Of a stretch of DNA of 46,116 nt, positions 21,792 through 34,591 are shown piece after piece. How positions within the stretch are numbered: position 1 is the first letter of the stretch; every line of letters begins with the position of its first letter. The translations under genes and the position numbers were made by a program. This DNA is from Coriobacteriia bacterium (GTDB lineage: Bacteria; Actinomycetota; Coriobacteriia; Coriobacteriales; Eggerthellaceae): contig JAUNWQ010000007.1 of NCBI GenBank assembly GCA_030540225.1, positions 1 to 46,116 of the forward strand, given 5' to 3'. The notes beneath the pieces were generated by a model that saw only the letters and a program-made list of their open reading frames with translations, made no database searches and was not told the DNA's origin.

Positions 21792-24023
21792 ATGGCTGAG
21801 GTCGAGAGGGAAGTCAAGAGAGCATCGTGTTTTCTGTGCCATCTGAATTGCGGAGTTCTCTGCACGAAGGAAAACGGCCGAGTCGTGAAGATCGAGGGAG
21901 ATCCGGACAACCCGCACAACGAGGGATATGTGTGTTCCCGACTCGAGCATGACCGCTGGAAAGATTTCGAATACAACCCCAACCGCTTGAAGAGGCCCCT
22001 CAAGCGCGTCGGCGAGCGCGGAAGCGGCCAGTGGGAGGAAATCACCTGGGATCAGGCCTTCGACGAGATGGCCGAGCGCCTTGCCGACCTTCGCGACAAG
22101 TACGGCGCCGAGACCCTGTGCTTCCTCGAGGGAACATACCGCACGCAGTCCAACCTGCACTACAAGTTCACCAACCTGTTCGGCACGCCGAACACCGGTG
22201 GCAACGGCACCATCTGCTACAGCTCCGACATGTGGCTCGAGCCGTGCACCTACGGCGGCTTCTGCTCCGACAAGTCGGACTGGAAGCGCGCTGACCTCGT
22301 CGTTTTGTGGGGCCGCAACCCCGCAGCTTCCGAGCTTCTGAATTGGCAGTGGACCCTGCGCAACATGCAGGAGCGCGGCGCGAAGCTCATCGTCATCGAC
22401 CCCCGCTTCTGCGAGGTTGCCCAGAAGGCCGACCTCTTCCTGCAGATTCGCCCCGGCACCGACGCGGCGCTCGCCCTCGGCATGATCAACGTGATCATCG
22501 AGGAAGACCTCTACGATCATGAGTTCGTCGAGGAATGGTGCTACGGCTTTGACCAGCTGAAGGAGCGCGCGGCGGAATATCCCGTCGAGAAGGTCGCCGA
22601 AATCACCTGGATCCCCGCCGACAAGATCCGCCAGGCAGCTCGCATGTACGCGACGACCAAGCCCGCCTGCCTGCCTTGGGGCGAGAAGGGCGGCGACGGC
22701 TGCGGCCTCAACGCCTCGAGCGCGATTCAGGGCAAGGCCATCCTGCGCGCCATCACGGGCAACATCGACAAGGTCGGCGGCGACCAGCTGACCATGCCAG
22801 GCGACCGCGGCAACACCGAGGACATGAACTTCTCCCACGACGCCCTCTCCCAAGAGCAACGCGACAAGATGGTCGGCAACGACATGTACCCTGGCCTCAC
22901 CTTCAAGGGCTGGGACATCATCTCGAAGGCCTACCCGCGCTTCTATCCCTACAGCAACGCGCCGACGATGTTCCGCCAGATGATCAGCGGCGACCCCTAC
23001 CCCATCAAGGCATGCATCGTGCAGGCGGACAACCCGATGCTCGCGTTCAGCAACACGAAGCTCGTGCATGAGGCGCTGAAGAGCCTTGATTTGCTCATCG
23101 TGCACGATTACTTCATGACGCCGACGGCGGCGCTGGCCGACTACGTGCTGCCCGCGGCAACGTGGCTCGAGCGCTGCAGCATCGGCTACCCGACCATGGA
23201 CGTCGAGCAGGTGAGCATGGCCGGCAGCATGCCCGTCCTCGAGCGCTTCGAAGGCGGCACCGACATCGACTTCCGCGACGACTACGAGTTCTGGTACGGG
23301 CTTTCCGAGCGCCTTGGCTTCGCCGACAAGTGGTGGGGTCCGAAGTACGAGGACATGATGAACGACCAGGCGGCGCCCTTCGGCATGAAGTTCCGCGACT
23401 TCTGCGAGAAGGTGAAGTACCTGAAGGTTCCCAACGTGCCGGAGAAGTACAAGGAGCCTGGCTTCAAGTTCCTCACCCCGACGGGCAAGGTCGAGCTGTA
23501 CTCGACGGTCATCGAGAAGCTCGCGAAGGAGACGGGCCGCAACTTCGACCCGCTGCCGAGCTTCACGTTCCCGCCGAACTTCCCCGAAGCGGACCCGGAG
23601 TACGCCGAGAAGTACCCGCTCTGCATGATCACGGGCGCCAGGTTCATGCCCTTCTACCACACCGAGCATCGCCAACCCGGCGCGTATCGAGACCTGCATC
23701 CGGACCCGATCTTCGATATCCACCCCGACACCGCCATCTCGCTTGACATTGCACCGGGCGATTGGTGCTGGATCGAGACGCACAAAGGCCGCATCAAGCA
23801 GCGCGCCCGCACCACGACGACAGTCGATCCGCGAGTCATCAGCGTGCAGCATGACTGGTGGTTCCCCGAGGAGCCCGAAGCCGAGCCGTCGCTGTTCGGC
23901 GTGTTCAAGTCGAACGTGAACGTGATTTTGGACGACGACGCGAAGTATCTCGATCCGCTGATGGGATCCTGGCCGCTCACGGGTGCGAGCGCCAAGGTCT
24001 ACAAGTGTGAAGAGCAAGACTGA
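21792..24023 (+). CDS. Acetylene-hydratase-like molybdopterin oxidoreductase
   Basis: A 743-residue DMSO-reductase-family enzyme binding Mo or W with two pyranopterins and one 4Fe-4S cluster (Cys13, Cys16, Cys20, Cys48). Order and motifs follow acetylene hydratase closely: GTDAALALGMINVII, FMTPTAALADYVLP, TPTGKVELYS and the AKVYKC end region. Cys142 (TICYSS) matches the metal-ligand Cys141 of acetylene hydratase. The residue after the second cluster Cys is His17, where acetylene hydratase has catalytic Asp13, so acetylene hydration is unlikely. Gut Eggerthellaceae use this group as catechol dehydroxylases (Dadh, Hcdh, Cldh), and a reductive dehydroxylase is the best guess. There is no Tat signal, so it acts in the cytoplasm. 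GAGAGGAG precedes the ATG. A divergent LuxR regulator lies upstream and a zinc-ribbon protein downstream. Confidence 0.88.
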   Translation: MAEVEREVKRASCFLCHLNCGVLCTKENGRVVKIEGDPDNPHNEGYVCSRLEHDRWKDFEYNPNRLKRPLKRVGERGSGQWEEITWDQAFDEMAERLADLRDKYGAETLCFLEGTYRTQSNLHYKFTNLFGTPNTGGNGTICYSSDMWLEPCTYGGFCSDKSDWKRADLVVLWGRNPAASELLNWQWTLRNMQERGAKLIVIDPRFCEVAQKADLFLQIRPGTDAALALGMINVIIEEDLYDHEFVEEWCYGFDQLKERAAEYPVEKVAEITWIPADKIRQAARMYATTKPACLPWGEKGGDGCGLNASSAIQGKAILRAITGNIDKVGGDQLTMPGDRGNTEDMNFSHDALSQEQRDKMVGNDMYPGLTFKGWDIISKAYPRFYPYSNAPTMFRQMISGDPYPIKACIVQADNPMLAFSNTKLVHEALKSLDLLIVHDYFMTPTAALADYVLPAATWLERCSIGYPTMDVEQVSMAGSMPVLERFEGGTDIDFRDDYEFWYGLSERLGFADKWWGPKYEDMMNDQAAPFGMKFRDFCEKVKYLKVPNVPEKYKEPGFKFLTPTGKVELYSTVIEKLAKETGRNFDPLPSFTFPPNFPEADPEYAEKYPLCMITGARFMPFYHTEHRQPGAYRDLHPDPIFDIHPDTAISLDIAPGDWCWIETHKGRIKQRARTTTTVDPRVISVQHDWWFPEEPEAEPSLFGVFKSNVNVILDDDAKYLDPLMGSWPLTGASAKVYKCEEQD

Positions 24024-26544: not shown

Positions 26545-26958
26545 ATGATTATTATCGTAGCATGCGAGGGTTTAGGCGTGTCGCCTCATGCCGTGCATTG
26601 CGCGAGCTTCATGTGCTACACCGTCGAGCGAGGGATCATCGCCGACTGCCGCAACCTGCCAAACCCTGGGCTTTCCGCCGAGGACACCGCGCAGATGTTC
26701 ATTGACCTGGGCGTCAGCACCATTATCACCGGCGGGATTGACTACGACTTCGCAAACATGCTCTGCCACGCCGGCATCGAAGTCGTCGCCGGTGTCGAAG
26801 GTTCGGCGCGTGAAGTGCTCGAAGCTTACATCAACCACACGCTCATCGGCGCCGACGAGCTGTGCCACACCCTTGCCTTCAACAACGACGAGGAAGAAGC
26901 GGAAGTCGACGATGCGTTCGCGAAGCTGGAAGCGAATTTCTTCACGGCGAACGCGTAA
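26545..26958 (+). CDS. NifX/NifB-type iron-molybdenum cofactor domain protein
   Basis: A 137-residue protein of the dinitrogenase FeMo-cofactor biosynthesis domain family (NifX/NafY/C-terminal NifB fold). The RNase H-like core is recognisable: MIIIVACEGLGVS, then IITGGIDYDFANML and GIEVVAGVEGSAREVLEAY. The last 30 residues are acidic. AAGGAACG precedes the ATG. No nif genes are visible here; in non-fixing anaerobes such proteins are thought to carry metal clusters or molybdate intermediates. In a region full of molybdoenzymes a role in metal handling is plausible but inferred. Confidence 0.8.
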   Translation: MIIIVACEGLGVSPHAVHCASFMCYTVERGIIADCRNLPNPGLSAEDTAQMFIDLGVSTIITGGIDYDFANMLCHAGIEVVAGVEGSAREVLEAYINHTLIGADELCHTLAFNNDEEEAEVDDAFAKLEANFFTANA

Positions 26959-27107: not shown

Positions 27108-28964
27108 CTAGTCGAGGTGCACGAAGTCCATGAACTCCTGCTGGGAATGCACGCCGCACTTCGAGTAGATGTTGCGCGCGTGCGCATGCACGGTGTTGAG
27201 CGAGATGACGAGCTCATCGCGGATGAACGGGCGGCTGCGCCCCGACAAGAGCAGCGCGGCGATCTGCGTCTCGCGCTCGGTAAGCCCATAGCGCGACCGA
27301 AGCTCTTCCGCCGTCTTCTCGAAGATGGAGGCGAGCTCCTCCCCCGCGGAAAGCGGCACGGCGGCACCCGGCCCAGAAGCAGCGCCAGCGGCAAAGCCAG
27401 AAGCGGAGCCAGGTGCAGAGCTAGAGGCGAAGCCAAAAGGCGCGCCATCTGAAGCCGCAACGCCGTATTCCATCCCTGAACCCGCAGCATTCGCACCGGC
27501 CGCAACGCCACCGGAGGCGTTCGCACCAGCGCCAGAAGCGTTCGCTCCGATAGCAACGCCACCCATCGCGCTCGGACCGCCAACAGCAAGTACCCCGTCC
27601 GCAATAGCATTCACGGAAGCCGTAGGAGCGTCGGCCCCAGAAGCACCTCCGCCAGCCACGCCGCGAGCCAAGCCATTCCCTGCAGCGCCCGCATCAGAGC
27701 ACGGGCTCACGCACGCCGAGCATGTTGAACGCGGAATCGACATGGCGAACTCCGCGTCGGTGAAGCGACGCACGGCATCGCTCAAGAACAGCCAGCGCGG
27801 GTTGAAGCCGGCGAGCATAGCGACGAGCGCAACCGCCCCCGTCGCGATAAGCGTCAAGTTCGCAAGCGCGGGCGCGCCGGCATCGAAAAGCGGCAGCGAA
27901 AGGGTGAGCGCCAGGGAAATTCCCAGGCCTTCCGCAGCAAACAAGCCACCGAACAGGAGAAACGATGACACGCCGATACGCCTCACATACTTCGGCGAAA
28001 CAACCCACACGCACATCTGGACGCCGAACATGGCAATGAAGTTGACCGCGTACGCAACGCTATGCTGCTCGGGAATGCCCAGGTCGATCAGCAGAAAGCC
28101 GCAGCCGATAATCATGAGCGGCACCGACCAGCGATAGAGGAAGGTGAAGTTCAAGAAGCGCGTCTGGCGCATACAGGTAAGAAACGCCACGATGGCGAGC
28201 ACCGCCGCAATGGAGAACGGCACAAGGTAGTGCATGAAGCGCCCGCCATACGTCATAGGCGAAGACGCCACGCGGAACAGCGCAATCTGGAACCAGATAA
28301 GAAAGTACAGCACAAAAAGGGAGCCCAAGTGGGAAAACTGCCTGCGCATCCCGGCATGCGCAGGCGCGCCAATGGCCTCCCCGTCGGTGGAAACGCTCCG
28401 ACCGCACCGCGGGCGGAACACGATCCACGTGGAAACGACGGGCAAAACGGCATCCACCACCATGAACAGCGGGCCTTTCACCGCCAAAAGCACGAAGTAC
28501 ACGACAAACGAGATCACGAACGACAGCGGAACGGTCGATTCGATGTGCTCCTCGTCGCAGTAGCTGAAGCGAGACCCCCACAAAATGCCAAGCAGCGCAA
28601 GCCCCGCGCCGCAGCACAGACCGCCCACCACGGTGAGCGCGGCGTACCACGAAAGATCGAGATGGCTCACCCAGATGAGAACGGACCCGATGCACGCGCA
28701 ACCGGCGCCGAGCACACCGATCATGCGCTGCACCACATCTCCGCGCCCCTTCTCGCGCAACAGGGCGTATACAATGATGACGGCGATCGCGGCAACGGCC
28801 TCGCCGATCCCGGAATACACCCACGAACGCTCGATGCTGCACAGCCGAATGACCACGGGGACGAGCCCGCACGAGAACAGCGAGCAATATACCCAAGCGA
28901 GATAGCACCCCAACCCGACGCTTCGTCGGAGCTGAAGCGGCAGCGCCTTAAGCGAGAACGCCAT
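27108..28964 (-). CDS. Membrane-bound LuxR-type regulator, divergent from the selenoenzyme operon
   Basis: A 618-residue protein with about 12 hydrophobic segments (1-400), then an unusual linker of about 130 residues rich in Ala, Gly and Ser (GANASG-type repeats), then a LuxR/GerE helix-turn-helix near 555-610 (LTERETQIAALLLSGRSRPF, then TVHAHARNIYSKCGV). ATG 28964 is chosen because GGAGGAG lies just upstream; a second in-frame ATG eight codons earlier lacks a site. It is divergent from the respiratory operon starting at 29223 and probably its activator. Confidence 0.87.
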   Translation of the reverse strand: MAFSLKALPLQLRRSVGLGCYLAWVYCSLFSCGLVPVVIRLCSIERSWVYSGIGEAVAAIAVIIVYALLREKGRGDVVQRMIGVLGAGCACIGSVLIWVSHLDLSWYAALTVVGGLCCGAGLALLGILWGSRFSYCDEEHIESTVPLSFVISFVVYFVLLAVKGPLFMVVDAVLPVVSTWIVFRPRCGRSVSTDGEAIGAPAHAGMRRQFSHLGSLFVLYFLIWFQIALFRVASSPMTYGGRFMHYLVPFSIAAVLAIVAFLTCMRQTRFLNFTFLYRWSVPLMIIGCGFLLIDLGIPEQHSVAYAVNFIAMFGVQMCVWVVSPKYVRRIGVSSFLLFGGLFAAEGLGISLALTLSLPLFDAGAPALANLTLIATGAVALVAMLAGFNPRWLFLSDAVRRFTDAEFAMSIPRSTCSACVSPCSDAGAAGNGLARGVAGGGASGADAPTASVNAIADGVLAVGGPSAMGGVAIGANASGAGANASGGVAAGANAAGSGMEYGVAASDGAPFGFASSSAPGSASGFAAGAASGPGAAVPLSAGEELASIFEKTAEELRSRYGLTERETQIAALLLSGRSRPFIRDELVISLNTVHAHARNIYSKCGVHSQQEFMDFVHLD

Positions 28965-29039
28965 GCCAATCTCCTCCTGCCCTTTCATCCCCCTGCAGGA
29001 AAAGTGTAGCGCACCTTTTGCCCTTCATGCCGATAAACC

Positions 29040-29222: not shown

Positions 29223-32200
29223 ATGGAATCGACCAAAATGAGTCGAAGGATCTTCCTTGCCGCCATGGGGGCCGCGGGCGCTTTGAGCGTCGCGGGCGTC
29301 GGCATCTCCGGGCAAAGCCACAAGGCGCTTGCCGCAGACGCTGACTTCGCAGCGCCGGCGACGGGCCACGGCCAGCCGCTGGAAGCCTCGGTCGACCCGA
29401 AAACCGGAGACGTCAACATAAACGAAGACGTCATCGTCCGCTACAGCGCTTGCTTGGGATGCTACAGCTCATGCGGCAACCGACTGAAGCTTTCCCGCGA
29501 CGGCGGCACGCTTTACTCGGTCGGCGGAAACCCGTACAACCCGAGCTGCGCAAACCCGTACCTGCCGTTCGAGGCACCGCTTGAGGACGCGTATCGCTCC
29601 ATGAGCTACGCGAACGGCTACGGCAACTCCACGCGTGGCACGTCGTGCGGGCGCGGCCAGGCGACGCAGGACGGCTACGGACAGCCCGATCGCATCACCA
29701 TGCCGCTCAAGCGCGCGGGCGCTCGAGGCGAGGGCAAGTGGAAGCCCATCAGCTGGGATCAGCTCATCAAGGAAGTCACGGAAGGCGGCAAGCTGTTCGC
29801 CGACATCGGGGAAGACCAGGAAATCGAAGGCTTCCTCTCCATCCATGACACCGAGACGCCGCTCAATCCCGACGAGCCGACGCTCGGACCGAAATCCAAC
29901 CAATTCGTCCTTCTGGGCGGACGCGGTGACGGCCGCACCACCTTCGGCGGACGCTTCGCGAACTGCTTTGGGTCGGTCAACCAATTTGGCCACGCCTCCA
30001 CTTGAGGCGGCTCCGCAAGTGCGAGTTCGTACTTTCACACTGGGTCCCGTTCCCTTCGCCCCGACGCATTAGACGCCGAATATATTCTGTGGCTGGGCAC
30101 CGCACCTGGAACTAACGGCAAGAGCTTCCAGGAAATCGCGCGTGACGTTCTGATCAACCTGCAAGAGCATGGCGCGAAGATGGACGTCTTCGACCCCGTG
30201 CTCGGCAATGGCTGCTGCACGCCGGGCGCCAAGGGCATCACCTGGCACCCCATCAAGACTGCCACGAACGGCCAGTTGGCCCTCGGCATGACCCGCTGGA
30301 TCATCGAGAACAAGGCCTACAACGCCGATTATCTGGGATTCACCAACTACAAGGCTGCTGTCGCCGGCGGTTTCGCCTCCTACACGGGCGCAACCTTCCT
30401 CGTCATCGACGACGAGTCCTCCGCGAACAACGGCAAGCTCATGACCGCCGCGGACGCAGGGCTCACCGAGCCTGAGGCCGATCCCGCAGCAAAGACCAAG
30501 CCGACCTACTACGTCGTTATGGACGCCGAGAAGAACGAGGCGGCCTTAAACACCGACGCCGAGCGAGGCCTCATCGACTTCGAAGGCGAAGTGAACGGCA
30601 TCAAGGTCCGCTCCGCGTTCCTCTACCTCAAGGACAGCGCTTTCTCGAACACCATGGACGAGTACGCCGAGATTTGCGGCGTGCCGCGCGAGACGATTGA
30701 AGACGTTGCGCGCGAGTTCACCTCCCACGGCGTGAAGGCCGCAACGACGGGCCTCGGCTCGACCGCTGCCTCCAACGGTGTGAGCTCCATGGCCGCCTAC
30801 ACCTTCTTAAACGCGCTTATCGGTTCGAACCAGATGCTCGGCGGCATGGTTGCCCGCCGCATCGGAGCCGCCACCACCGCCGACGGCAAGCGCTACAAGC
30901 TTTCCACCATCGCTGGCAAGCCGGCACTCACTGACGCAAAGAACTGCCAGAACATCGGCCGCACGAAGCGCATCTGGAAGAAGACCGACGAGTACAAAAA
31001 CCGCGTCGCCGCAGGCGAAACCGACCCGAAGCCACTGCTTCCCTGGTTCAGCCACACCGGCGTCTCGGACAACCAGGCGCTCATCTCGGCGCTGTGCAAG
31101 TACCCCTACCAGGCGAAGATCGTCATGTCCTGGATGACCAACACCCTCCAGGCGACCTCCGGCCTTTTGCGCGACTCCGTGCTCGAGCGCATGAAGGACA
31201 CCTCTATCATCCCGCTGCACATCGCTTGCGACGTCGTCATCGGCGAGCACGCGCAGTACGCCGACTACATCGTGCCCGACACGAACCCCTTCGAGAGCTT
31301 CGGCGTGGTCACCAACGAGGGCTTCTTCAAGAGCAAGGGCAACTCCGTTCGCTGGCCTGCGAAGACTCCTGAGACCATCGAGATCTCGGGCGGTCGCCAT
31401 GCAAGCTTCGAGGCGTTCTGCTGCGACGTTGCCAAGGTGTGCGACATGCCCGGCTTCGGCGACAATGCCGTGACCGACGTCGACGGCAAGACCTGGCCGC
31501 TCAACGACGCGTGCGACTTCTTCCTGAAGGCTGTTGCCAACCTCGCCTACGACGCTGAGCCTGTCGTCGATGTCGCCTCCGAGGACTTGAAGCTGCAGGC
31601 GCTCGACAACCTTCCCGAGGCATGGAAGAACGCCGTCAGCGAAGAGGAATGGCCGAAGGTTTTGAACGTGCTCTCGCGCGGCGGCCGCTTCTGGCCCATG
31701 GAGGACTGCATCGGCAAGAACGGCGCCATCAAGTACGCCACCGATAACCTGACGCACTTCTACAGCAACCGCAAGGCGACCGACGCGAACCCCTACACCG
31801 GGGAAAAGCTCTCGGGCACGCTTACCAACGACCCCGAGCGCTTCGCCGACAACTCCACGCTCGAGGACCATTACTCGCGCGAGGAATACCCGTTCCGCTC
31901 GACGAACTACAAGCCGCGCTTCCGTTCGATCTCCTTCTTGGCTAACAGCCCGATCATGCGCGACTTGTGCGACCACAACTACCTCGAGCTCAACCGCGAC
32001 GACGCGAAGGCGCTCGGCATCAAGGACGGCGACACCATCAAGATCACGAACCCCTCGGGTGACGTGATGGAAGGCGAGGCCATGGTTCGCGGCGGCATTG
32101 CCGAAGGCACCTTCGGCGTGGCATATGGCTACGGGCATCGCGCCTACGGTGCGCAGGACGTCGCCATCGAAGGCGAGGAAACCCGCAAGGGCGACCCGGC

Positions 32201-32327
32201 AATCGGCTCGGGCATCCACCTGCAGACGATGCTCGACCCGACGATCAGCGAGATCTATCCCCTGGCAGACCCCGAGGGAACCTCTCCTGGACGCTCGGGC
32301 GGCATGTACAAGATCGAGAAAGCCTAA
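29223..32327 (+). CDS. Tat-exported molybdopterin oxidoreductase, probable selenoprotein (TtrA/PhsA-like)
   Basis: One 1034-residue catalytic subunit if the TGA at 30003-30005 is read as selenocysteine (Sec261). Twin-arginine signal MSRRIFLAAMG (Arg8-Arg9). Cluster cysteines 77, 80, 84 and 142, with the GNPYNPS insertion between them typical of TtrA. The segment FGSVNQFGHAST precedes the TGA and GGSASASSYFH follows; polysulfide, thiosulfate and tetrathionate reductases have Cys, the molybdenum ligand, at this spot (F.G.PN...H..TC). The frame stays open for 774 codons after the TGA with all later family motifs, for example EYILWLGTAPG, and a hairpin suited to a SECIS starts 12 nt on. AAGGAGGGG precedes the ATG. 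FeS, NrfD and TorD genes follow. It probably reduces a sulfur or other terminal acceptor outside the membrane; the substrate is unknown. The alternative is a pseudogene with one nonsense mutation. Confidence 0.82.
30003..30005 (+). other. In-frame TGA, proposed selenocysteine codon
   Basis: Codon 261 of the catalytic subunit. It replaces the expected Cys codon (TGC or TGT) by a change in the third base only and sits at the metal-ligand column of the family. It is the only in-frame stop between 29223 and 32325. Confidence 0.78.
30017..30034 (+). promoter_or_regulatory. Candidate bacterial SECIS hairpin
   Basis: AAGTGCG (30017-30023) pairs with CGTACTT (30028-30034), seven pairs including one G-U, around the loop AGTT. 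Counting the T of TGA as 1, the loop G and U are 23 and 24, the same as the essential G23-U24 in E. coli fdhF, and the upper stem also begins at 15. A weaker lower stem (GGCTCC at 30009-30014 with GGGTCC) can extend it. The bulged U17 of fdhF is not evident; position 18 is a U in the stem. The loop distance fits the published bacterial SECIS consensus. Confidence 0.7.
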
Positions 32328-32341
32328 AGGAGGGATAAACG

Positions 32342-32959
32342 ATGAGTGAGAAAAAACTTGGTATGCTGATCGATCTGTCCCTCTGCGTGGGATGCAACGC
32401 CTGCGCTGTGGCGTGCAAGCAGGAAAACGAGGTGCCGACCGGCTGCTTCAACACCTGGATCGAGAGCTTCGACGTCGAAGCCGACGGGCAGATCAAGCGC
32501 GCGAACATCCCGAAGCTGTGCAACCACTGCGAGGATGCCCCCTGCGTGAAGGTGTGCCCGACTCAGGCAAGCCATCGCACCGAGGACGGCACGATCGTCG
32601 TCGACCCCGAGCGCTGCATCGGGTGCAAGTACTGCATAGCCGCGTGCCCCTACCAGGTGCGCTACCAGCTGCCTTCGGGCGAGGTGGAGAAGTGCACCTT
32701 CTGTGAGCACCGCACCAGCAAGGGAATGCTCCCCGCCTGCGTGGGAACGTGCATCACGCACGCTCGCATGTTCGGCGACCTGAACGACCCCGAGAGCGAC
32801 ATCTCGAAGAAGCTTGCCGCGAGCAAGACCGAGACGCTCTATCCCGACCTGGGACTTTCACCCCGTGTCTACTACATTGGGCTCGACGATACGCTCGCAA
32901 TGCCCGTTGCCTCCGCAGTTCACAAGGGCGGCAACGTCTTGCGGCACTACGAGGGGTGA
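32342..32959 (+). CDS. 4Fe-4S electron-transfer subunit (TtrB/PhsB/DmsB-like)
   Basis: A 205-residue ferredoxin-type subunit with 16 cysteines in four groups that bind four 4Fe-4S clusters: CVGCNACAVAC, CNHCEDAPCVKVC, CIGCKYCIAAC and CTFC...CVGTC. It carries electrons from the membrane subunit to the molybdenum site. There is no signal peptide of its own; such subunits are exported with the Tat-bearing catalytic subunit. AAAGGAGGG precedes the ATG, 14 bp after the catalytic gene. Confidence 0.95.
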   Translation: MSEKKLGMLIDLSLCVGCNACAVACKQENEVPTGCFNTWIESFDVEADGQIKRANIPKLCNHCEDAPCVKVCPTQASHRTEDGTIVVDPERCIGCKYCIAACPYQVRYQLPSGEVEKCTFCEHRTSKGMLPACVGTCITHARMFGDLNDPESDISKKLAASKTETLYPDLGLSPRVYYIGLDDTLAMPVASAVHKGGNVLRHYEG

Positions 32960-32965
32960 TACGTC

Positions 32966-33841
32966 ATGGTATGGAATTGGATGATTGCACTGTATCTGTT
33001 CTTGGCAGGTATGGGCGCCGGCGCATTCGTGCTCTCCGGCATCGCGGGCATGGCGAAGAAACCCTGTCCGAAAATCAAGACAATCGGCTTTATCGCAGGC
33101 CCGGTCTGCGTGGCCGTAGGCACCCTGCTTCTGGTCGTCGATGCTCATGCGGGACTGATGAACCCGCTGAGATTCTTCTACCTCGTTAGCAACCTGGGGT
33201 CGGTCATGGCCTGGGGCGTCATCATCTTGACGCTGTTCATCGTGGTAGCGGCGATCGACGCGATCATCATGATTGTGAAGAAATCGACGCCTCGCGTGCT
33301 CGACATCATCGGCATGATCTTGGCCGTGTGCGTCGCCGCCTACACCGGCGTGCTTTTGGGTGACGCGTCCGTCGCGTTCCCCCTGTGGCACCCGATCATC
33401 CTGCCGATTCTGTTCCTGGTATCGGCAGCTTCGACCGGATTCGCGCTCGTCATGGTCATCGCGCATGGGAAGGCTCATGACGAAATCGCAAACATCGGCT
33501 TTACCGTGAAGTCCGGCATGGTTCTTCCCGTGTTGGAGGCGCTCCTCGTGATCGCGCTTCTCGGCACGGTGGCCATCACGGGCGGCTCGGCTGCGGCAGC
33601 GGCGAAAGCCTCGGTCGCGAACCTGCTCACCGGCGGCTACGCGCTGGCATTCTGGGTCCTGTTCGTCATCGTCGGACTTGCGTTCCCGTTCGCGCAGGCG
33701 CTCCACAAGTCGATGCAAGAGAAGAAATCACTCATGCAGCAGCCTGGGCTCACGATCGCAGGCGAGGTCGGGGTCCTGATCGGCGGCTTCATGTTGCGCT
33801 ACCTGATCGTCATGGCGGCAATCCCCGTAGCCCTGGGATAG
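32966..33841 (+). CDS. NrfD/PsrC-type membrane anchor and quinol oxidase subunit
   Basis: A 291-residue protein with about eight transmembrane helices (first MIALYLFLAGMGAGAFVLSG, last MLRYLIVMAAIPVALG). The family oxidises menaquinol and passes electrons to the FeS subunit. It starts 6 bp after the FeS gene, so it is translationally linked. Together with the two upstream subunits it forms a complete PsrABC/TtrABC-type membrane reductase facing outward. Confidence 0.92.
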   Translation: MVWNWMIALYLFLAGMGAGAFVLSGIAGMAKKPCPKIKTIGFIAGPVCVAVGTLLLVVDAHAGLMNPLRFFYLVSNLGSVMAWGVIILTLFIVVAAIDAIIMIVKKSTPRVLDIIGMILAVCVAAYTGVLLGDASVAFPLWHPIILPILFLVSAASTGFALVMVIAHGKAHDEIANIGFTVKSGMVLPVLEALLVIALLGTVAITGGSAAAAAKASVANLLTGGYALAFWVLFVIVGLAFPFAQALHKSMQEKKSLMQQPGLTIAGEVGVLIGGFMLRYLIVMAAIPVALG

Positions 33842-33916: not shown

Positions 33917-34591
33917 ATGAGCATCGATTCCCAGGCCCTCGCGACCGCAGGCCAAGCATCCCGCGGCATGAGCACCGTCTACGAAGCAGTTGCAGAAGCG
34001 CTGCTCAATATCCCCAGCTCCACCGTCATCGCCGACCTCGATCGCGTCGCCTCCGCCATGGGAGACGACCGGTTCGCAAGCATCGGGGCATCGCCTGATT
34101 TGGAGCAACGCTTCTACAATCGCTTCTTCGTCTCGTCGAGTGTCTACCATATTGCCTGGTCGGAAAGTAGTGTCTGGAACTCGGGCGTCGTGGATGGGCG
34201 CATCGAGTATGCAAGCCCCGTCCCTTCGCGCAAGGCGCACGTCATCGCCTGCTACGAGGAGGCGGGTTTCGACTACCTCAAGCTCACGGGCTACGAGATC
34301 GCAGTATCGACGCTGCCTCCCGACGCTTTCGCAAGCGAACTGGCGTTCATGTCCTATCTCCACGATGGCGCCGCCCGTGCAGCAGAGGCAGGCGACTCCT
34401 CTTCGGCGCAGGCAAACCTCCATTTGGCGAAACAGTTCCTTGAGCAGCATCTTTCCCGTTGGGCATCGCGCCTCGCAGAGATGACGGCCGTTGCGGGCGA
34501 CGACTTCTACTCGCGCATCGTCGCCTTCGCCGCGGACGTCGTAGCCCTCGACCTTCAGCAGCTTAAGGAGGAGGAAAACACGCTAGGATAG
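33917..34591 (+). CDS. TorD/DmsD-family chaperone
   Basis: A 224-residue all-helical cytoplasmic chaperone dedicated to molybdoenzymes with Tat signals. The recognisable part is near residues 125-195: LPPDAFASELAFMSYL, then LAKQFLEQHLSRWASRL, the HL..W motif of the family. It would hold the catalytic subunit until cofactor insertion and proofread export. AAAGG precedes the ATG. It lies 75 bp after the NrfD gene, behind the hairpin. Its presence argues that the catalytic subunit with the in-frame TGA is still made. Confidence 0.88.
   Translation: MSIDSQALATAGQASRGMSTVYEAVAEALLNIPSSTVIADLDRVASAMGDDRFASIGASPDLEQRFYNRFFVSSSVYHIAWSESSVWNSGVVDGRIEYASPVPSRKAHVIACYEEAGFDYLKLTGYEIAVSTLPPDAFASELAFMSYLHDGAARAAEAGDSSSAQANLHLAKQFLEQHLSRWASRLAEMTAVAGDDFYSRIVAFAADVVALDLQQLKEEENTLG

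Follow-up and report, generated by a model that had tools for sequence, protein, structure and literature searches.

How is a reductase gene translated when a single in-frame TGA stands at the codon of its expected metal ligand, and what kind of enzyme results? This question is raised by a locus in a stretch of 46,116 nucleotides (the window, meaning the whole DNA that was analysed), which comes from a gut-type bacterium of the Eggerthella/Gordonibacter group. The original prediction described one TGA (30003) at the column of the molybdenum-binding Cys, in a frame that reads through, without frameshift, into one enzyme of normal length, with a cluster motif before the TGA and about 770 codons after it. 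The features of the gene are as follows.

29223-32327, forward strand: catalytic subunit of a TtrA-branch Mo/W-bisPGD reductase, 1034 residues in a single frame read through one UGA
29223-29339, forward strand: Tat-type signal SRRIFL, with R8, R9 and F11 invariant; export is predicted from it
29451-29648, forward strand: N-terminal [4Fe-4S] cysteines C77, C80, C84 and C142, invariant in 17 diverse homologues
30003-30005, forward strand: UGA probably read as selenocysteine (Sec), residue 261, at the Mo/W ligand position; of the family loci, 21 have TGA in this column and the others have Cys
30017-30034, forward strand: SECIS-type hairpin AAGUGCG-AGUU-CGUACUU, found by covariation, RNAalifold, fold z and a covariance model

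In translation, the sole internal stop of the frame is the TGA at codon 261, in the context GHAST-TGA-GGSA, and the terminal stop is TAA. A strong ribosome-binding site, AAGGAGG, precedes the start at 29223. No frameshift is present, and the 773 codons counted 3' of the TGA align with homologues to the very end, as had been predicted. The cluster motif was likewise found upstream of the TGA, in the form of the four invariant cysteines, which we take from family knowledge to be the cluster ligands. In a profile alignment, codon 261 falls on the C of the HSSVC motif of ArrA in the structure 6cz7; this Cys is the Mo ligand.

Homologues of the gene are present in 26 of the 138 Eggerthellaceae genomes that were compared. 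TGA occupies the codon-261 column in 21 full-length loci (window included) from 16 genomes and eight genus groups, each locus having exactly one TGA and neither a second stop nor a frameshift, and all other full-length family homologues carry Cys at the ligand column. The alignment that the original prediction had proposed as a check therefore returned Cys or TGA and no third residue, and full-length close homologues (46-65% identical) contain one TGA or none. A chance TGA is excluded because so many loci and genomes share a single TGA at the exact column where the others have Cys. Among the genomes with TGA are those of Gordonibacter sp. Marseille-P2775, 28C and An230, G. pamelaeae 7-10-1-b, Eggerthella sinensis, Adlercreutzia faecimuris, Rubneribacter badeniensis, Enterorhabdus sp. 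P55 and Candidatus Aphodovivens. Some Gordonibacter isolates, such as Gordonibacter sp. Marseille-P2775 or G. pamelaeae, have two Sec copies. Cys forms are found in Slackia equolifaciens, Berryella and Enteroscipio, and Gordonibacter and Eggerthella have them as paralogues. That TGC or TGT was misread in one MAG, through faulty sequencing or assembly, is conceivable for a window genome that is itself a 160-contig MAG. This reading is vanishingly improbable and was rejected, since independent isolates and MAGs share the TGA, and Gordonibacter, Eggerthella, Adlercreutzia and Rubneribacter all have isolate genomes with the same codon and a matching hairpin.

In a class-wide sample of 298 genomes, no matches were obtained outside the same family. 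Further afield, a homologue in another phylum, encoded by the Geobacter sp. UBA6802 MAG (L118, 419-3496), is 39% identical, has TGA at the ligand column and carries its own perfect 8-pair hairpin 3' of the TGA; SelB is also present in this MAG. Among 141 genomes of its order, no further Sec member was found, and the other homologues have no internal stop. A distant TtrA-like homologue (34%; L074, G062:C1:2447330-2450290) has an internal TAG instead of TGA, and is possibly a pseudogene.

Selection on the two parts of the gene was compared in pairs of close homologues with TGA in both members; on either side of this codon, dN/dS is about 0.1-0.25. Given the low ratio after the TGA, translation evidently continues in frame through the 773 codons that follow. 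A pseudogene formed by nonsense mutation, as the splitting of the ORF by an internal stop might suggest, was rejected by this selection analysis and has practically no chance of being correct, all the more as none of the 21 loci has acquired a second stop or a frameshift.

The region 3' of the UGA was examined in a gapless alignment of 45 bases, counted from the UGA, of 17 distinct sequences. These share a hairpin at one fixed offset, with six pairs in the stem and four bases in the loop. Standard pairs fill 93.1% of the pair cells, as compared to 75.2% in shuffles, and 0 of 500 shuffles reach 93.1%. Changes on both sides occur in five of the six pairs, slid controls collapse, and the RNAalifold consensus independently returns the same hairpin. 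The hairpin alone has a fold z of -3.3; the whole 45-base stretch folds no better than shuffles (z 0.62), and the evidence comes from the short hairpin and from the covariation between sequences. The loop GU, at 30025-30026 in the window, is invariant in all 17 distinct sequences at bases 22-23 (zero being the U of UGA), which is the offset found in E. coli fdhF, a sequence verified across 5368 E. coli genomes. The loop codon can be AGT, CGT or GGT, thus three different residues with GT common to all, and third-position T makes up just 2-14% in the genes carrying the hairpin. As GT is kept across three residues despite this low frequency, the constraint acts at the level of the RNA and not of the protein.

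A covariance model built for this hairpin scores the window site at 41.8 bits. In the window genome this site is the sole convincing match, the next having an E-value of 0.2, so the model is specific to the family and is not a general SECIS finder; it also missed the hairpin of the Geobacter sp. UBA6802 MAG. When the model was applied to the ligand sites of Cys homologues, only one of them scored (24.2 bits, E 0.02), and the match falls precisely on its Cys codon. This homologue, from Eggerthella sinensis (L084, 9786-9828, minus strand), has kept a SECIS-type hairpin, CAGCGAGTTCGCTG, shortly 3' of its TGC, which judging from the sequence is probably a fossil of a Sec-to-Cys conversion.

All four components of the Sec machinery that the original prediction had listed for checking (selA, selB, selD and tRNA-Sec) are encoded in the window genome. 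The selB gene (374 bits) adjoins selA (542 bits) on contig 130, tRNA-Sec (68 bits) has the anticodon tca, and selD (L176, 345 bits) itself contains an in-frame TGA in SKGG*AAKWGPGD. The genome also encodes a formate dehydrogenase-N of the FdnG type (L200, G000:C139:532-3774), with TGA at V*HSP and a score of 1065 bits, above the curated cut-off of 814. Across the family, full-score SelB is present in 14 of the 16 genomes with TGA vs 59 of the 122 others (Fisher p 0.0026, to be read as a guide only, as the genomes are related). Of the two TGA genomes that lack full-score SelB, one is an assembly of 82% completeness in which SelB is partial, and the other is a MAG of 56% completeness.

An open frame under a given code does not prove Sec, and the UGA could in principle be read as another amino acid, through general recoding or near-cognate read-through. 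General recoding was rejected because neighbouring genes terminate in TGA, and any non-Sec reading is very unlikely given that each gene has a single TGA, always at an otherwise-Cys position, and that the hairpin and the Sec machinery are present. The marks of a bacterial selenoprotein are thus found together: UGA where homologues have Cys, a 3' SECIS hairpin, and SelA, SelB, SelD and tRNA-Sec. Selenocysteine at codon 261, as originally proposed, is strongly supported by the sequence data, with the hairpin, the putative fossil hairpin and purifying selection as further support.

The second part of the question concerns the enzyme. The Pfam Molybdopterin and Molydop_binding domains lie 3' of the TGA, and both domains, the cluster cysteines and the ligand position place the product in the DMSO reductase (MopB) superfamily. 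Its best NCBIfam match is TtrA, over residues 5-1006; the score of 612 bits lies below the cut-off of 1750 (NF011567), a threshold that a Photobacterium homologue (1343 bits) also does not reach. The PhsA/PsrA family (NF012032) matches with 138 bits against a cut-off of 694, and therefore the TtrA half of the earlier label TtrA/PhsA-like stands and the PhsA half does not. Formate dehydrogenase alpha models score far below their cut-offs (TIGR01553, 46 vs 814 bits; TIGR01591, 72 vs 666 bits), and the motif at the ligand is U-G-G-S, so it is not the U/C-H-x-P of formate dehydrogenases. ArrA (6cz7) is the best PDB match in both the profile and the fold comparison. The AlphaFold model is weakest at the active-site loop (pLDDT < 50 at 258-266), so the model alone gives no proof of ligation. 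Sec is not essential to the enzyme fold, since several lineages use Cys.

The catalytic gene is accompanied by the following genes.

27108-28988, reverse strand: divergent membrane-type LuxR regulator (Pfam GerE, residues 569-621)
32342-32959, forward strand: four-cluster ferredoxin-type subunit, TtrB-like (NCBIfam TtrB E 1.2e-63, below cut-off; Pfam Fer4_11)
32966-33841, forward strand: NrfD/PsrC-type membrane anchor, predicted to be quinol-oxidising (Pfam NrfD E 8e-32)
33917-34591, forward strand: TorD/NarJ-type chaperone (Pfam Nitrate_red_del E 7e-9; NCBIfam DMSO_red_II_cha E 4e-7)

The order LuxR (divergent), catalytic, FeS, NrfD and TorD-like is kept in most Sec and Cys members, with the LuxR gene present and divergent beside most homologues. 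The intact operon with its own LuxR regulator that had been described is thereby confirmed by domain matches and by conservation.

As a further alternative, the enzyme could be a true tetrathionate reductase with Sec simply standing in for Cys. TtrA is indeed the best family match over nearly the full length and the FeS subunit is TtrB-like, but the score lies far below the cut-off, identity to Vibrionaceae TtrA-like proteins is only 32-34%, and the NrfD subunit matches TtrC weakly. This explanation is therefore considered unlikely, and because the NCBI TtrA cut-off is not reached, the substrate should not be named tetrathionate. The tested Vibrionaceae relatives have Cys at the ligand, where a TGA codon stands here.

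A selenoprotein made by SelB- and hairpin-dependent decoding of UGA, with Sec261 as probable Mo/W ligand in an exported quinol-linked reductase, is the best overall explanation, and we hold it with very high confidence. SelB, bound to the hairpin just 3' of the UGA, would bring Sec-tRNA(Sec), and translation through the UGA would give the full catalytic subunit of 1034 residues. Sec261 may coordinate the Mo (or W) of the bis-pyranopterin cofactor, as Cys does in relatives. The folded subunit would leave via Tat and join its two partners, the NrfD anchor and the FeS subunit with its four clusters; electrons from menaquinol would then reduce an extracytoplasmic acceptor, with expression likely under the control of the own LuxR regulator. 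From established knowledge of the Ttr, Psr and Arr systems, we take this to be a quinol-linked, exported terminal reductase. The acceptor is most likely either an oxyanion of sulfur, selenium or arsenic or a small organic compound.

Comparison with known systems shows where this enzyme stands. With TtrABC (the TtrA/SrdA/archaeal arsenate reductase clade) it shares a size of about 1000 residues, a full-length profile match, a Tat-type signal, a TtrB-like FeS subunit and an NrfD-family anchor; unlike TtrA, which has Cys (PMC10100899, Table 1), it has predicted Sec and a score far below the cut-off. The Sec formate dehydrogenases FdhF, FdnG and FdhA have Sec at the same Mo/W position and an equal offset of the loop GU. 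However, they belong to another branch and have U-H-x-P, whereas the TtrA-branch family has U-G-G, U-G-A or U-A-V as well as an NrfD anchor and a reductase-type operon. Formylmethanofuran dehydrogenase (FwdB/FmdB) is also a MopB protein with a Sec or Cys ligand, but by general knowledge and PMC10100899 it is an archaeal, cytoplasmic CO2 enzyme without Tat signal and remote in sequence. ArrA, although the closest structure, has a Cys ligand and 17% identity, and a shared function is not implied.

A careful tree of 45 rows requires at least six Sec/Cys changes, five of them within the Eggerthellaceae group, and places the window in an all-Sec set of seven with support 95/95. In a quick tree, the sister of the window is a Cys pair that includes the homologue with the fossil hairpin; this is not so in the careful tree, and because the two disagree no weight is given to the sister placement. 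The placement of the Geobacter MAG row is unsure owing to long branches. Because the outgroups carry Cys, the data suggest that Sec was gained within the TtrA branch and then lost repeatedly, the tree alone not giving the direction. It is probable, though with less assurance than for the selenoprotein itself, that these enzymes form a family of quinol-linked terminal-reductase selenoproteins outside the formate/CO2 enzymes, in which Sec is secondary to Cys ancestors in the TtrA branch and was lost several times, that they support selenium-dependent anaerobic respiration in Eggerthellaceae, and that the Geobacter-assigned MAG holds a separate deep Sec member.

In the literature, the ligand of TtrA is given as Cys and Sec is described only in Fwd/Fmd and formate dehydrogenases (PMC7331816, PMC10100899), and Cys is given for TtrA/PsrA/PhsA/Arr in the literature searched. 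It has been argued that Sec is the ancestral ligand of the superfamily (PMC7331816). In the part consulted of a 2026 inventory of prokaryotic selenoproteins (PMC13188914), formate and formylmethanofuran dehydrogenases are the only molybdopterin families; a term search of its full text returned 'molybdopterin' once (MoeB) and 'tetrathionate reductase' once (octaheme cytochrome). A PF00384 branch of unassigned specificity with similar neighbours was described in Eggerthella and Gordonibacter in a 2014 survey (PMC4257093). Within the open-licence literature, no earlier report of Sec in Ttr, Psr, Phs or Arr, or in Eggerthella/Gordonibacter, was found, which agrees with the original statement that no described case was known in the tetrathionate/thiosulfate branch. 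Since Sec is otherwise reported for Fwd/Fmd and formate dehydrogenases only, Sec as a Mo ligand is known in kind and its use in the TtrA reductase branch appears to be new.

Sec in an otherwise-Cys reductase lineage would broaden Sec chemistry at Mo, and natural Sec/Cys paralogue pairs, some adjacent in one genome, allow tests of the role of Se at Mo. In Gordonibacter- and Eggerthella-type genomes, Sec and Cys paralogues (L086, G068:C1:107500-127000; L090; L091) are found, together with their operons, at most about 15 kb apart. Gene finders that take UGA as a stop would split TtrA-branch Sec enzymes, and the reductase repertoire of the drug- and diet-metabolising Eggerthellaceae may therefore be undercounted. 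Selenium supply may also limit some respirations in these bacteria.

Elsewhere in the window, a small Nitro_FeMo-Co (NifX-type) domain protein is encoded near the LuxR gene (26545-26958, forward strand); no nitrogenase gene was noticed within the examined part of the window. A second, different molybdopterin oxidoreductase, weakly formate dehydrogenase/PhsA-like, lies at 21792-24023 on the forward strand. The 2.2 Mb window genome has 25 PF00384 matches vs 60-84 in relatives.
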